Below, piece after piece: positions 42,346-55,887 of a DNA stretch of 64,000 nt (position 1 is its first letter; each line of letters begins with the position of its first letter). The stretch is from Prevotellaceae bacterium (GTDB lineage Bacteria > Bacteroidota > Bacteroidia > Bacteroidales > Bacteroidaceae). The DNA lies in contig JAUNOM010000001.1 of NCBI GenBank assembly GCA_030531085.1, positions 1 to 64,000 on the forward strand, read 5' to 3'. The notes beneath the pieces were generated by a model. The model did no database searches. It was not told the DNA's origin and saw only the letters and a program-made list of their open reading frames with translations. The position numbers were made by a program, and so were the translations under genes.

Positions 42346-43140
42346 CTATTTCAGTCCTTCAATGTCCCGCTTTACATTACTTCTTATCTTTGTGAGATAC
42401 TGCTTCATTCTGTCGGCGTCCTTGTTGTCAATGATGTCGAGCAGCTCCTTCAGCTCTTGTCTTATCTGGTCCACCTGGTCGTGTGTGTAGGGGTTGAACA
42501 GCACCTCCTGCAGCAGATAGTCGTCCTCGTTGAGAACGCCTTTGGCTATGCGCAGGTGACGCTTGAAGGTGGTGCCCGGCGCATCCTGATGCTTCATTAC
42601 CGCCGAAAAGACGAATGTGGACACGAAAGGTATGGACAGTGAGTATGCCACGGTCTTGTCATGCTCCTCGAAAGAGTACTCGTATATGTTCAGACCCAGG
42701 CGGCTGTACAGGTCCTTGAAGAAGCATTGGCCCATGCAGTCACCCTCTGTTATGATGATGGCGTTCTCCTCTGACAGCTGGTTCAGGTTGGCAAATGTCG
42801 GACCGAACATAGGGTGGGTGCTGACATAGCGGCGTCCCGTGGATACATAGAACTCCTTCAGACCGGTCTTTACAGACGCGATGTCGCTGATAAGGCACTC
42901 GTCGCTGAGGTAGGGCAGCACCTCGTTGAATGCGGGGATGGTGTATTTGACTGTCGCCGCGTTGATAACCAGTTCCGGATTGAATGCGCGCACCTCCTCA
43001 AGGTCGGTGAACCGCTGGCAGTTATATGTGAAGCGCAGGCGCCTGGCGTCCTTCTCGTACACGCCAACCTCATGGTCAAAGCTTAGCAGGTCAATGAAGA
43101 ATGAGCCCATCTTGCCCGCTCCGAGAATAAGAATCTTCAT
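42346..43140 (-). CDS. tyrA: Prephenate dehydrogenase
   Basis: 264 residues. The NAD(P) fold starts MKILILGAGKMGSFFIDLL, with ISDIASVK and the substrate motif STHPMFGPT, followed by the helical dimerisation domain. It oxidises prephenate to 4-hydroxyphenylpyruvate for tyrosine. There is no fused chorismate mutase, which is provided by the gene just upstream, and no ACT domain, so feedback control may act elsewhere. Last gene of the operon, 21 bp after DAHPS/CM. Confidence 0.9.
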   Translation of the reverse strand: MKILILGAGKMGSFFIDLLSFDHEVGVYEKDARRLRFTYNCQRFTDLEEVRAFNPELVINAATVKYTIPAFNEVLPYLSDECLISDIASVKTGLKEFYVSTGRRYVSTHPMFGPTFANLNQLSEENAIIITEGDCMGQCFFKDLYSRLGLNIYEYSFEEHDKTVAYSLSIPFVSTFVFSAVMKHQDAPGTTFKRHLRIAKGVLNEDDYLLQEVLFNPYTHDQVDQIRQELKELLDIIDNKDADRMKQYLTKIRSNVKRDIEGLK

Positions 43141-43161: not shown

Positions 43162-44226
43162 TTATTTGTTTATTATCTCAAGCTGCTGGCGTACGGACTC
43201 CTCGTGGATGGCCTCGAAAACGGTCTTCACAAATTCCTCGCTCATGCCGCACAGTGCGCCCTGCGCGCCGCGCTTGTCCAGTATCTCGTTGTAACGTCCT
43301 GTCTGCAGCACTGTCATGTTGTGCTCCTTCTTGTACTGTCCTATCTCGCGGCATACGCGGAAACGCTGTGATAGCAGCTCCAGCAGTTTGTCGTCCTGCT
43401 CGTCTATCTGCTTGCGCAGAGCGGTTATGTTTTCTGTTGTCATGTTCTCGTCACGTATTTGCAGTAGGGTGAGGATGTAGTCGAGTACATCCGGTGTCAC
43501 TTGTTGCTTGGCATCGCTCCATGCCTTGTCCGGATCGCAGTGGCTTTCCACTATTAGTCCGTCAAAGCCAAGGTCCATAGCCTGCTGGCACAGTGGTGCG
43601 ACCAGCTCGCGGCGGCCTCCGATATGGCTTGGATCACATACTATAGGCAGTTCCGGTATGCGGCGGCGCAGCTCTATAGGTATCTGCCACATGGGCAGGT
43701 TGCGGTATATCTTCTTGTCGTATGATGAGAATCCGCGGTGTATCGCTCCGAGTCTCTTCACGCCGGCAAGGTTTATGCGCTCCAGTGCGCCTATCCACAG
43801 TTCCAGATCAGGGTTTACCGGGTTTTTGACAAGTACAGGTATCTCTATTCCCTTCATGGAGTCGGCAAGTTCCTGCATGGCGAATGGATTGGCCGATGTG
43901 CGTGCTCCTACCCAGAGGAGGTCAATGCCGTACTTCATTGCCAGCTCCACGTGCTCCGGTGTGGCCACCTCTGTGCACATCTGCATTCCTGTCTCCTTCT
44001 TGGCCTGTGCCATCCATTTTAGGGCAGGCTCGCCGTGACCCTCGAAACCGCCCGGCTTGGTGCGTGGCTTCCATACTCCTGCGCGGAACATGTGGCAGCC
44101 TTTATGCGCCAGCTGCTGCGCTGTTGTCATTACCTGCTCCTCTGTCTCTGCCGAACATGGGCCGGCGATTACGAATGGGCGTTTGTTATCACTTGGAAGA
44201 TTGAGTGCCTCAAGTTGTAAATCCAT
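43162..44226 (-). CDS. DAHP synthase fused to chorismate mutase
   Basis: 354 residues from MDLQLEALNLPSDNKRPFVI. The open frame continues 300 bases upstream, but those residues show no family similarity and overlap the end of the aminotransferase gene. Residues about 17-260 are the DAHP synthase barrel (AGPCSAETEEQV, FRAGVWKPRTKPGGFEG, WVGARTSANPF, CDPSHIGGRR); about 270-354 are an AroQ chorismate mutase (TALRKQIDEQDDKLLELLSQR). A C-terminal mutase that controls the synthase is known from Porphyromonas gingivalis. It carries out the first shikimate step and the chorismate to prephenate step. Confidence 0.93.
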   Translation of the reverse strand: MDLQLEALNLPSDNKRPFVIAGPCSAETEEQVMTTAQQLAHKGCHMFRAGVWKPRTKPGGFEGHGEPALKWMAQAKKETGMQMCTEVATPEHVELAMKYGIDLLWVGARTSANPFAMQELADSMKGIEIPVLVKNPVNPDLELWIGALERINLAGVKRLGAIHRGFSSYDKKIYRNLPMWQIPIELRRRIPELPIVCDPSHIGGRRELVAPLCQQAMDLGFDGLIVESHCDPDKAWSDAKQQVTPDVLDYILTLLQIRDENMTTENITALRKQIDEQDDKLLELLSQRFRVCREIGQYKKEHNMTVLQTGRYNEILDKRGAQGALCGMSEEFVKTVFEAIHEESVRQQLEIINK

Positions 44227-44294
44227 TGTATTGTATATTTGTTTATAATGTGTTGATGTTTCTGTATTATATAGTAATGTGTAGTGGCGGTGCG

Positions 44295-45467
44295 TTATGG
44301 CTGCATAACCTCCTTTATCCTGCCCAGCGCCTCCTGTATCTTCTCGTCCTTGGCGCATAGGGATATTCGGATATAGCGCTCGCCGTTGCTGCCGAATATG
44401 AAGCCGGGAGTGATGAATACGCGTGCCTTGTGCAGTATCATCTCTGTAAGGTCCTCCACGTTGTCGTACTTGTCTGGAATCCTGCCCCACAGGAACATTC
44501 CTACAGAGTCCTTGTCGTATGTGCATCCGAGGGTGTCCATTATCCTTTCAGCGATTACGCGGCGACGCTTGTAGTTGTCGTAATTGTTCACCCTATGCCA
44601 CTCGTCTGCGTTGTGGTAGGCCTCTGCGGCGGCCAGTTGCAGCCCTCTGAACGTTCCGGAGTCAATGTTTGACTTCACTTTCAGTATCCATGAGATGAAC
44701 TCGCTGTTAGTGGCTACCATTCCAACACGCCATCCCGGCATGTTATGGCTCTTGGACATGGAGTTGAACTCTATGCAGCAGTCCTTTGCTCCGGGTATCT
44801 GCAGCAGTGACTGTGGATTGTCGTTGATGATGAAGGAGTACGGATTGTCGTTTACCACAACGATATTGTGCTGCTTGGCGAACTGTACCAGCCTCTCGTA
44901 TGTCTCCCGTCGCGCATTGCCTCCAGTGGGCATATTGGGGTAGTTGGTCCACATTATCTTCACTTTGCTGAGGTCCATGCTCTCCAGTGCGTCGAAGTCT
45001 GGCTGCCATCCGTCATTCTCCTTCAGGTCATAGTTTACAATCTTCTGCCCGAGAATCTTGGACAGCGAGGTGTATGTGGGGTAGCCGGGATTGGGAACCA
45101 GCACCTCGTCACCGGGATTGCATAGTGCGAGTGTCACGTGCAGTATGGCTTCCTTGGAGCCAATCATAGGCTGTATCTCTGTCTTCGGGTCAAGCTCCAC
45201 GTTATACCAGCGCTTGTAGAAGTATGCCATGGCCTCTCTTAACTCCGGTATGCCCATTGTGGGCTGGTATCCATGTGCGGAAGGGTCGTGTGCCACTTCA
45301 CATAGTTTGTTGACTGTAGCCTCTGACGGCGGCATGTCGGGTGAACCGATGGCGAGGGAGATGATGTCCATGCCCTGCGCATTGAGCTGTGCCACCTCCT
45401 TCAGCTTGCGGCTGAAGTAGTATTCCTGTACTGACGACAGGCGGTCGGCTGGTTTGATGTTGTTCAT
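44295..45467 (-). CDS. PLP-dependent aminotransferase (class I/II)
   Basis: 390 residues from MNNIKPADRLSSVQEYYF; the ATG at 45539 lies inside pheA and is less likely. PLP-binding lysine in SMSKSHNMPGWRVG, cofactor segments MWTNYPNMPTGG, VVNDNPYSF and the phosphate-binding GSKEAILH are visible. The position between pheA and the DAHPS/CM gene suggests it makes phenylalanine and tyrosine from their keto acids, or prephenate to arogenate. Overall similarity is to the LL-diaminopimelate/aspartate aminotransferase group, so specificity rests on context. Confidence 0.88.
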   Translation of the reverse strand: MNNIKPADRLSSVQEYYFSRKLKEVAQLNAQGMDIISLAIGSPDMPPSEATVNKLCEVAHDPSAHGYQPTMGIPELREAMAYFYKRWYNVELDPKTEIQPMIGSKEAILHVTLALCNPGDEVLVPNPGYPTYTSLSKILGQKIVNYDLKENDGWQPDFDALESMDLSKVKIMWTNYPNMPTGGNARRETYERLVQFAKQHNIVVVNDNPYSFIINDNPQSLLQIPGAKDCCIEFNSMSKSHNMPGWRVGMVATNSEFISWILKVKSNIDSGTFRGLQLAAAEAYHNADEWHRVNNYDNYKRRRVIAERIMDTLGCTYDKDSVGMFLWGRIPDKYDNVEDLTEMILHKARVFITPGFIFGSNGERYIRISLCAKDEKIQEALGRIKEVMQP

Positions 45468-45516
45468 ATTGTGTTGTTGATTTATGTTTATAAGGTTTGT
45501 GTGCTGTCTCTTTCCT

Positions 45517-46347
45517 CTATGCCGACTTGTATTCACCAAGGATTATGAGGTCCTTTGTAAGCGGTGTTATGGCATCGATGCTCTGGCGGTATCTTGTCAG
45601 GTCGTCATACGTCACGTCCACGTAGAAAAGGTATTCCCATTCTCTGCCTATTATGGGCAGGGACTGTATCTTTGTGAGGTTTATCTTGTAGAAAGACAAT
45701 ATTGAAAGCACCTGTGACAGGGAGCCTTCCTCATGTGGCAGTGAGAAGACGATGCTCGACTTGTCAGACTCGTTGAGCGCTCTAAGGAAATCAGCCTTGC
45801 GTGGGTCTGTCATGACAAGGAAGCGGGTGTAGTTGTGTGGATTGTCCTCCACGTGGTTCTCCAGCACCTCCAGTCCGTAAAGTCTTGCCGCGTCGGCGTG
45901 GCACAGGGCCGCAACACCCTTCAGATTGTTTTCTGCTATCCACTTGGCGGAGCCTGCTGTGTCCTCGTCCTCAACCATCTTGAGGTTGGGATGCTTGGAA
46001 AGGTATTTGCAGCATTGAGCGAGGGCGACGGGATGTGAATGCACTTCTGTTATATCATCTGCCGTTTGCCCCGGAAGACAGCACAGACAGTGGCTTATAT
46101 GTGTCTTGTGCTCGCCTACGACAGACATGCCTGACTCGCGCAGCAGTTCGTAGTTATGGAGCAGTGAGCCTGCTATGGTGTTCTCTATTGCCATTATTCC
46201 CAATACGGTAGGGTCCTGTTTCATGTGCTCAAAGACTTCCTCGAACGTGGAGCAGCATATTATCTGCAGTTGTTCCCCTTGGAAGTAATGGTGTGCTGTG
46301 ATGTCGTGGAACGAGCCAATCTCGCCCTGTATCGCTATTCTCTTCAT
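45517..46347 (-). CDS. pheA: Prephenate dehydratase
   Basis: 276 residues. A prephenate dehydratase domain (QGEIGSFHDITAHHYF, IMAIENTIAGSLLHNYELL, NYTRFLVM) is followed by an ACT domain (about 195-270). The ACT phenylalanine-binding motifs usually written GALV and ESRP appear here as GSLSQVL and KIQSLPI, so feedback by phenylalanine may be weakened. It makes phenylpyruvate from prephenate. First structural gene of the operon, behind a 255-nt leader with an attenuator. Confidence 0.92.
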   Translation of the reverse strand: MKRIAIQGEIGSFHDITAHHYFQGEQLQIICCSTFEEVFEHMKQDPTVLGIMAIENTIAGSLLHNYELLRESGMSVVGEHKTHISHCLCCLPGQTADDITEVHSHPVALAQCCKYLSKHPNLKMVEDEDTAGSAKWIAENNLKGVAALCHADAARLYGLEVLENHVEDNPHNYTRFLVMTDPRKADFLRALNESDKSSIVFSLPHEEGSLSQVLSILSFYKINLTKIQSLPIIGREWEYLFYVDVTYDDLTRYRQSIDAITPLTKDLIILGEYKSA

Positions 46348-46412
46348 CTTTTTTGTCTTTGTGTTTCTTTTATTTCTGTGTAGTCTGACTGTTAGTGTTT
46401 ATGTATAAAATT

Positions 46413-46448
46413 AAAGTCCCGTATAGATGTTATTCTATGCGGGACTTT
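46413..46448 (-). terminator. Attenuator terminator in the pheA operon leader
   Basis: On the minus strand AAAGTCCCGCATAGA (46434-46448) pairs with TCTATACGGGACTTT (46413-46427) around a 6-nt loop (one G-U pair), followed by AATTTTATAC. It lies 66 nt before the pheA ATG and downstream of the Phe/Tyr-rich leader peptide. TCCCGC in its first arm can instead pair with GCGGGA at 46502-46507, inside the leader frame. Confidence 0.8.
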
Positions 46449-46489
46449 GCAAATATGATGCTTTTGCTTGTTTATCCTTAAGTTGAACT

Positions 46490-46573
46490 CTACACGCAAC
46501 TTCCCGCTTCACAGTGTCCTGTAAAGTAAAAGTAAAAATAAAAGAAAGATGCGTATGAATTGTTCATGTTCAT
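46490..46573 (-). CDS. Phe/Tyr-rich leader peptide, 27 aa
   Basis: An ATG at 46573, about 30 nt after the predicted transcript start, opens a 27-codon frame ending at TAG (46490-46492). Residues 10-17 are FFYFYFYF, five Phe and three Tyr in a row, followed by TGHCEAGSCV. The downstream operon makes exactly these two amino acids. Too short for ordinary ORF calling. The pattern is that of regulatory leader peptides such as PheL, where ribosome stalling on scarce charged tRNA sets the choice between terminator and antiterminator. Confidence 0.82.
   Translation of the reverse strand: MNMNNSYASFFYFYFYFTGHCEAGSCV
46502..46507 (-). promoter_or_regulatory. Putative antiterminator arm in the leader
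   Basis: GCGGGA on the minus strand is encoded by the Ala-Gly codons near the end of the leader peptide. It is complementary to TCCCGC of the terminator's first arm (46439-46444). A ribosome stalled at the Phe/Tyr codons would leave it free, and one at the stop codon would cover it. A small stem, AAGTTG/CAACTT, directly follows. Confidence 0.55.
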
Positions 46574-46608
46574 TGCTTCGTCTTTTTACGTGTTGGTTTT
46601 AAATCGTT

Positions 46609-46640
46609 GCAAAATTACATCTTTTTATTGAAACTTGCAA
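46609..46640 (-). promoter_or_regulatory. Promoter of the Phe/Tyr operon
   Basis: Minus-strand TTG (46638-46640) and TAATTTTGC (46609-46617) are 20 nt apart. Predicted start near 46602, giving a leader of about 255 nt. Confidence 0.7.
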
Positions 46641-46758
46641 ATTTTTTCTGTATAAAATTGATGATTTGTTACAAAAAGACCGTTTTCCTGTCATTGTAGT
46701 ATGTGTGTGCCGTTACATTTCAAGTCTGATACATTATTTATATTATGGATATGAAAAA

Positions 46759-46799
46759 ACAGTTTGTAGGCAAAATGGTATGTTTAGCCTACAAACTGT
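46759..46799 (-). terminator. Rho-independent terminator after the S41 peptidase gene
   Basis: Perfect 13-bp arms ACAGTTTGTAGGC (46759-46771) and GCCTACAAACTGT (46787-46799). On the minus strand the stem is followed by TTTTTTCATA. It ends the long minus-strand gene run that starts near 55.5 kb. Confidence 0.9.
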
Positions 46800-55656: not shown

Positions 55657-55713
55657 CATCGCTTTTGAAAAAGGATGCTGCAACAGGCTTAATTCTTCAG
55701 AAGTGGAATACAT

Positions 55714-55809
55714 GGGCAAGTCTTGCACGACCAGCTCCCTCGGAATCCTCCAGGACGGGAACGTAGCAAAGGTACTTGGTTGTAGCGGTGCGATGTAAGT
55801 AGCTTGCCC
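55714..55809 (+). ncRNA. ffs: Signal recognition particle RNA, small bacterial type
   Basis: GGGCAAG (55714-55720) pairs with CTTGCCC (55803-55809), closing a 96-nt rod. The apical part reads CAGGACGGGAACGTAGCAAAGGTA, with GGAAC, AGCAA and GGTA matching the conserved Ffh-binding core in shortened form, followed by GTGCGATGTA. Length and structure fit the 4.5S-type SRP RNA. Confidence 0.85.
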
Positions 55810-55813
55810 ACCT

Positions 55814-55887
55814 GCCTCTTTAGCTCAGTTGGCCAGAGCACGTGATTTGTAATCTCGGGGTCGTTGGTTCGAATCCGACAAGAGGCT
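55814..55887 (+). tRNA. tRNA-Thr (anticodon TGT)
   Basis: Acceptor arms GCCTCTT (55814-55820) and AAGAGGC (55880-55886), D-arm AGCTCAGTTGGCCAGAGC, anticodon loop TTTGTAA with TGT at 55848-55850, and T-arm GGTTCGAATCC. It begins 4 nt after the SRP RNA, so both are presumably cut from one transcript. CCA is not encoded. Confidence 0.95.

Follow-up and report, generated by a model that had tools for sequence, protein, structure and literature searches.

A candidate phenylalanine/tyrosine attenuator ahead of the pheA operon in a Prevotella-like genome and its relatives in Bacteroidia

The window, the whole 64,000-nt stretch of DNA analyzed here, carries on its minus strand a four-gene operon for phenylalanine and tyrosine synthesis, located downstream of ctp:

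46754-46799, minus strand: likely ctp terminator, a hairpin with a T-run (ACAGTTTGTAGGC...GCCTACAAACTGTTTTTT) directly after ctp
45517..46347, minus strand: pheA (prephenate dehydratase), the first gene of the operon; best NCBIfam match PRK11898
44295..45467, minus strand: aminotransferase gene (ORF listed as 44295-45539 from an upstream TTG)
43162..44226, minus strand: DAHP synthase/chorismate mutase fusion (DAHPS/CM; ORF listed as 43162-44526)
42346..43140, minus strand: tyrA (prephenate dehydrogenase), the last gene of the operon

The first-pass annotation of this DNA had proposed an operon of these four genes, and both the NCBIfam matches and the gene order bear it out; its coordinates, re-read in the sequence, were all correct on the minus strand. 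The order pheA-aminotransferase-DAHPS/CM-tyrA recurs in 72 of 80 fetched loci, with matches in the other eight stopping after DAHPS/CM (five loci) or after the aminotransferase (three loci). The pheA match to PRK11898 reaches 194 bits, below the curated cut-off of 219, and the tyrA match likewise falls below the curated cut-offs. Start codons for the aminotransferase (ATG at 45467; the gene-order query began one codon later) and for the DAHPS/CM fusion (ATG at 44226) are our own choices. Since a hairpin and T-run of its own follow ctp, the region ahead of pheA looks like a separate transcription unit, in which the following elements were delineated:

46610..46641, minus strand: promoter motif, TTTG (46641-46638), a 20-nt spacer and TAATTTTG (46617-46610)
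46490..46573, minus strand: leader peptide frame of 27 codons, from ATG at 46573 to the stop codon TAG at 46492-46490; peptide MNMNNSYASFFYFYFYFTGHCEAGSCV
46523..46546, minus strand: putative control codons FFYFYFYF (five Phe and three Tyr), read from the sequence
46519..46526, minus strand: segment 1, CTTTACAG, the end of the run, predicted to pair with 46514-46507
46496..46514, minus strand: segment 2, CTGTGAAGCGGGAAGTTGC; predicted antiterminator 5′ arm, GCGGGA (46507-46502) plus TTGC (46499-46496)
46480..46501, minus strand: putative accessory hairpin over the stop codon, AAGTTG (46501-46496) with CAACTT (46485-46480)
46434..46450, minus strand: segment 3, GCAA (46450-46447) plus the predicted terminator 5′ arm AAAGTCCCGCATAGA (46448-46434)
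46405..46427, minus strand: segment 4, the predicted terminator 3′ arm TCTATACGGGACTTT (46427-46413) plus an interrupted U-tract (46412-46405)

A promoter had been claimed upstream of the leader, and a motif of the Bacteroides type, TTTG-N20-TAATTTTG, is indeed present there; its two elements fit the Bacteroides promoter consensus TTTG/TAnnTTTG. A search for TTTG-N18-22-TAnnTTTG within 130 nt upstream of the leader found the motif in 71 of 78 Prevotella-like leaders, 41 of 101 leaders from the family sample, and 25 of 58 others (i.e., in fewer than half of the leaders outside the Prevotella-like set), compared with 2 of 3580 shuffles.

The 27-codon frame with five Phe and three Tyr codons described in the first-pass annotation is likewise present, with the run FFYFYFYF at 46546-46523. 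Frames of 8-45 codons lying no more than 450 nt from pheA were scored by aromatic residues per nine; the window leader scores 8.5, and 2000 shuffles of that 450-nt stretch score 7 at best. A pattern of five Phe/Tyr codons has four overlapping matches at this run and recurs at one further place in the 64-kb window, where chance would give 0.07. In the 2.37-Mb assembly (81% complete), a seven-codon pattern is confined to this run and one poly-T tract. A backwards version of the seven-codon pattern gave equal raw counts in the assembly (5 and 2) and none in the window, so the genome count alone proves nothing, and the argument against chance rests on the shuffles upstream of pheA and on the five-codon count in 64 kb. 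None of the 2000 shuffles held a run this dense. As judged from sequence, the element is real and deeply conserved. Searches of the same genome for comparable leaders, covering the first 1.7 kb of loci starting 1.5 kb before the match, found no frame with four His in nine residues at hisG and no frame with two Trp in nine residues at trpE. His-codon runs do occur elsewhere in the genome.

Among relatives, an aromatic-run leader (at least six aromatic residues in nine) precedes pheA in 294 of the 334 class-Bacteroidia upstream regions read, although these are not independent events, as many of the genomes are related and the collections may share species. By set, leaders were found in 78 of 80 regions from the named contigs and the window, 97 of 103 from the family, 61 of 68 from the order, 47 of 72 from the class, and all 11 additional class members read from the phylum sample. 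Reading 49 other families of the order gave a leader in 44. In a control on 272 upstream regions, 238 leaders were found, compared with 4 when the 272 antisense strands were read and 6 among 1360 shuffles. Two loci cut by a contig end (L026 and L131) and one in which the anchor failed (L277) were left out, six of seven re-read loci were counted in the order sample, and the PheA hits whose upstream regions were not read number 6 of 79 (class), 18 of 128 (family), and 5 of 80 (order). From the phylum sample (172 genomes with a PheA hit), upstream regions were read for 38 genomes from outside the class and for 11 additional Bacteroidia.

At a stricter threshold of at least seven aromatic residues in nine, 77 of the 80 fetched named-contig pheA loci have a leader frame; of the remaining three, L026 is the one cut by the contig end, and L012 and L013 are without a leader. 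In these two, the ctp frame ends 6 nt and 26 nt, respectively, before pheA, leaving no room for a ctp hairpin, a promoter, or a leader. Forty of the 334 Bacteroidia regions lack a leader at the cut-off, including L230, L231, and L245, where pheA appears to follow directly a gene that we take to be aroA-like; a Trp-rich frame before pheA in L230 and L245 was considered as a leader and set aside, since it lies inside that gene and appears to be due to chance. Three members of family f20 (L093, L094, and L096) fall under the cut-off and yet look leader-like, which makes 294 of 334 a conservative count. They share a frame MK.TQTYFW[FY]YP... before pheA, with Trp among Tyr and Phe, and GC-rich hairpins with T-runs lie downstream of it in L093 and L094; this frame is possibly a Phe/Tyr/Trp leader. 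Outside the class, leaders were found in 4 of the 38 upstream regions read (L289, L292, L297, and L388). The PheA proteins of these four genomes score best of the 38 (201-248 bits), suggesting possible transfer.

The composition of the runs indicates which amino acids the leader might read. Over 238 leaders, the runs average 3.9 Phe and 4.0 Tyr codons, TTT, TTC, TAT, or TAC account for 1890 of 2068 run codons, and 237 of 238 runs contain both amino acids, as do 292 of 294 leaders in the wider set. The order of the two residues drifts (e.g., FFYFYFYF, YFYGYYFYF, and FFFFFYYFYF), as it would if the total of hungry codons were all that counts. Since run codons are all Phe/Tyr and about equal in number across relatives, a single leader would sense both of the amino acids that the operon makes. 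It is also conceivable that the attenuator is real and responds mainly to one amino acid, the codons for the other arising because TTY and TAY interconvert by a single mutation; the free drift in order and the two leaders of 294 without Phe or without Tyr would be compatible with this view. However, the near-equal means and the presence of both residues in 237 of 238 runs suggest that both are kept, and a response to mainly one amino acid is considered unlikely. In five Prevotella-like leaders (L008, L010, L023, L027, and L042), Trp replaces one aromatic codon of the run (e.g., YYYFWFYF and WFYGFYFYF).

Downstream of the frame, the strong terminator claimed at 46413-46448 was confirmed in part: a strong, terminator-like hairpin spans 46448-46413, but the U-tract that follows it is interrupted (AATTTTAT), and a strict promoter/terminator scan reported no terminator at this hairpin, probably because of that interruption. 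Our own hairpin search found a hairpin with a T-rich tail before pheA after 288 of 294 leaders; the hairpin of the window leader is referred to here as a predicted terminator.

Between the run and the hairpin, most Prevotella-like and family-sample leaders share a conserved AGCGG core, whose reading frame varies. In the 78 Prevotella-like leaders, this core lies in frame 0 in 74, in frame 2 in one, and after the stop codon in one, with two unmatched; of 102 family-sample leaders, 57 have it in frame 2, 26 beyond the stop codon, nine in frame 0, and two in frame 1, with eight unmatched. The frame 0 reading is CEAG, CEAV, CEAE, and variants, and that of frame 2 is VKRE, VERE, and variants. Since the same nucleotides, GTGAAGCGG, are found in different frames or beyond the stop codon, it is the RNA, not the peptide, that is kept. 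The distance from the end of the run to the core is 15 nt in 72 of 76 Prevotella-like leaders and 13-23 nt in all 94 family-sample leaders with a core, and such a constant distance combined with a free reading frame would fit a ribosome footprint. An arm held in place across reading frames is strong natural evidence that selection sees RNA pairing rather than peptide.

These observations bear directly on a different kind of switch, in which the nascent peptide would sense a free aromatic amino acid and stall the ribosome. TnaC is an example of such an arrest peptide. A similar tail (CEAG/CEAV/CEAE, often then SCV) does follow the run in most Prevotella-like leaders. However, the tail is conserved as nucleotides, with GTGAAGCGG read as CEA. 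or VKR. or falling past the stop codon; the leader of L009 is frame-shifted and that of L045 stops before the core, and both retain TGTGAAGCGG; L060 has a stop codon within the arm; and the order of residues in the run varies, as in the three examples above. An arrest-peptide switch is thus very unlikely.

The competing pairing provides the second line of evidence for an attenuator. The antiterminator named in the first-pass annotation, GCGGGA (46507-46502) with TCCCGC (46444-46439), is present, but the pairing is longer than the 6 bp given there, with a TTGC:GCAA helix added. As folded in nascent RNA of the window leader, it consists of GCGGGA:TCCCGC, a 2x2 AG/AG internal loop, and TTGC:GCAA (-19.4 kcal/mol). 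The duplex of segments 2 and 3 reaches -20.1 kcal/mol, a value attained by 2 of 2000 shuffles; if internal loops are disallowed, the helix shrinks to 6 bp and is no better than the median swap. In most Prevotella-like leaders, the leader sequence GTGAAGCGG(G) pairs with CCGCTTCAC in the terminator 5′ arm, whereas in the window and its near relatives this arm now reads CCGCATAGA or similar, and the upstream half of the pairing is lost. GCAA directly precedes the terminator arm in 10 of the 14 leaders without TTCAC, these 10 being related genomes and not independent gains, and in none of the 64 with TTCAC. The predicted second helix, TTGC:GCAA, is a feature of this lineage.

Over the class as a whole, the arms have been rewritten, e.g., GCCGGGACT:AGTCCCGGC, GACAGGATTTTGTATGT:ATATATAAAATCCTGTC, and GTGAAGCAG:CTGCTTCAC. 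In 115 leaders of the broad set (window excluded), segments 2 and 3 paired with their own partners average -17.7 kcal/mol, compared with -11.8 kcal/mol (sd 0.28) for swapped arms; the best of 5000 arm permutations reached -12.8 kcal/mol, and own arms were better than the median swap in 111 of the 115. A smaller set of 62 leaders agrees (-18.2 own versus -11.9 swapped). The antiterminator pairing thus covaries across Bacteroidia. A lack of conservation in related leaders would have refuted the original proposal; the short frame, the terminator-like hairpin, and the competing pairing are all conserved. In the Prevotella-like set alone, whole-arm shuffles reached the observed value in 115 of 2000 cases, and shuffles of the upstream part did so in 269 of 2000; a signal was confined to the two positions downstream of GCGG (1 of 2000 shuffles). 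Since the Prevotella-like arms hardly vary, shuffles within that set are uninformative over the whole arm, and the broad set was relied upon.

Another account of the short frame is that it merely aids translation of pheA by reinitiation, the hairpin being an ordinary insulator. For many groups, Bacteroidetes among them, leader peptides have been proposed to act through reinitiation (PMC4833913). The window leader, however, ends 142 nt from the pheA start, far from the 11-14 bp peak given there for Bacteroidetes, and reinitiation would leave both the Phe/Tyr run and the covarying competitor pairing unexplained. It is therefore barely credible as an explanation of this locus.

Two further hairpins may form around the antiterminator arm. 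Segment 1 would join the end of the run to the leader arm through an 8-bp hairpin with a GACA loop (CTTTACAG:CTGTGAAG). In 76 leaders, including the window (L009 and L045 were left out as their spacing differs), this CTTTRCAR:YTGTGAAG pairing holds in 605 of 608 cells, compared with at most 592 in 2000 shuffles and 198-377 in slid versions. Its innermost pair is G-C in 38 leaders, A-T in 32, and C-G in one, providing one clearly compensated pair. The hairpin overlaps the pairing of segments 2 and 3 in leaders with a TTCAC arm and does not overlap GCGGGA in the window; for the window, the proposal that it must block the antiterminator was dropped for this reason. The accessory hairpin over the stop codon would be an alternative to the TTGC:GCAA helix. 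Compensated changes were found in L006 (ATGTTG:CAACAT) and in L039, L053, and L067 (TCGTTG:CAACGA), and a search of the Prevotella-like leaders did not find this hairpin in many of them.

Taken together, the conserved frame, the terminator-like hairpin, and the covarying competing pairing support the original attenuator reading: the leader is very probably a ribosome-mediated transcription attenuator, predicted to turn the Phe/Tyr operon on when charged tRNA-Phe or tRNA-Tyr is short. In replete cells, the ribosome would reach the stop codon, located 15 nt past the start of GCGGGA, and would thereby cover segment 2, leaving segments 3 and 4 to form the terminator. When Phe or Tyr is scarce, the ribosome would stall within the run, and segment 2 would stay free to take segment 3 (GCGGGA:TCCCGC plus TTGC:GCAA) before segment 4 is made. 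With the antiterminator formed, RNA polymerase would transcribe on into pheA.

Folding calculations were compared with this scheme. With segment 1 masked, the core of the segment 2:3 pairing forms in all 78 nascent leaders, and with a ribosome placed at the stop codon, the terminator forms in all 78. At equilibrium, full-length folding with segment 1 masked favors the terminator in 56 of 78 leaders, including the window, and so the choice of the antiterminator would have to be kinetic, i.e., a matter of timing. In classical attenuators, too, the choice between folds is kinetic. Folds without translation gave the segment 1:2 hairpin in 27 of 78 leaders, the 2:3 pairing in 50, and both in three; for the window leader, two such folds with different ends disagree. 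Of 76 Prevotella-like leaders, 71 have a core that starts 15 nt before the stop codon. This spacing grows to 31-37 nt in 10 of 94 family-sample leaders, which is too far for easy cover by a stop-bound ribosome.

Attenuators of this general kind are already known. In the E. coli pheL-pheA attenuator, a short frame rich in Phe codons is followed by a terminator and a competing antiterminator before pheA, and the working of the window leader would resemble this class, to which trpL also belongs. As in pheL-pheA (E. coli and relatives, RF01859), a Phe-rich frame and competing folds are found upstream of pheA; in contrast, the window leader alternates Phe and Tyr codons and precedes an operon for the synthesis of both. 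In E. coli, the leaders of ilvGMEDA and thrABC also read more than one amino acid, though the likeness, drawn without sequence comparison, concerns other amino acids and another phylum. The Phe/Tyr version in Bacteroidia is not recognized by Rfam Phe_leader: on the window leader, the RF01859 match has the expected strand and position but scores 14.7 bits (E 8.1), the gathering score being 55, and a permissive-threshold Rfam search of the leader gave nothing significant. The element could have been missed because no Rfam family reaches threshold on it.

The Rfam result is also relevant to the suggestion that a ligand- or tRNA-binding RNA (a riboswitch or T-box-like element) controls the terminator, the short frame being incidental. 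A structured leader with a terminator is typical of both kinds. No Rfam family reaches its gathering score in the window leader, however, and the coding run is conserved across the class (1890 of 2068 codons being TTT, TTC, TAT, or TAC), making this explanation highly improbable compared with ribosome-mediated attenuation.

Among the literature matches listed, a Phe/Tyr leader in Prevotella or Bacteroides is not described. Work by Lopatovskaya et al. (2010) on attenuation in bacteria may overlap with the present subject and, to go by its title, may already predict attenuators in this phylum. A word search through the main text of a premature-terminator survey from the same year found none of Bacteroid-, Prevotella, phenylalanine, and pheA (PMC2965389). 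For Bacteroides thetaiotaomicron, leader-like small frames in long 5′ UTRs have been reported; the available part of that article names no Phe/Tyr leader, and the word phenylalanine is absent from its main text (PMC7366714). Closest is Flavobacterium psychrophilum, for which the available part of a transcriptome study describes a conserved structured 5′ element upstream of pheA, as well as clues for leader-peptide attenuation before amino-acid operons (PMC9723704). That element shares phylum and gene with the window leader, and is given in that part without a peptide, a pairing, or a survey past Flavobacteriaceae (PMC9723704). The first-pass remark that no description was known for Prevotella-like bacteria is narrowed by the F. 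psychrophilum element.

The distribution of the leader also has a bearing on its age. A 2013 survey placed the possible origin of amino-acid attenuators in gamma-proteobacteria (PMC3766115); a leader in 294 of 334 Bacteroidia upstream regions is an argument for attenuation being ancient and widely distributed in another phylum. We lean toward the view that a dual Phe/Tyr attenuator dates back to the common ancestor of Bacteroidia and has persisted across the class, with its arms rewritten many times, selection fixing the distance of the RNA arm from the run while leaving the frame free to slide. If so, amino-acid attenuators would not simply have spread from gamma-proteobacteria, and ribosomes and RNA polymerase would be closely coupled in Bacteroidota, with leaders that have no Shine-Dalgarno sequence. 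If the leader works as proposed, it would offer a ready-made reporter of transcription-translation coupling and of aromatic amino-acid status in these bacteria.

Two other RNA matches were recorded by Rfam in the window. A small SRP RNA of Bacteroidales (RF04183), followed at once by a tRNA match, lies at 55707-55887 on the plus strand, and an abiF RNA match (RF03085, 51.3 bits) lies at 1808-1844 on the minus strand; abiF RNAs are linked to Abi-type phage defense genes.
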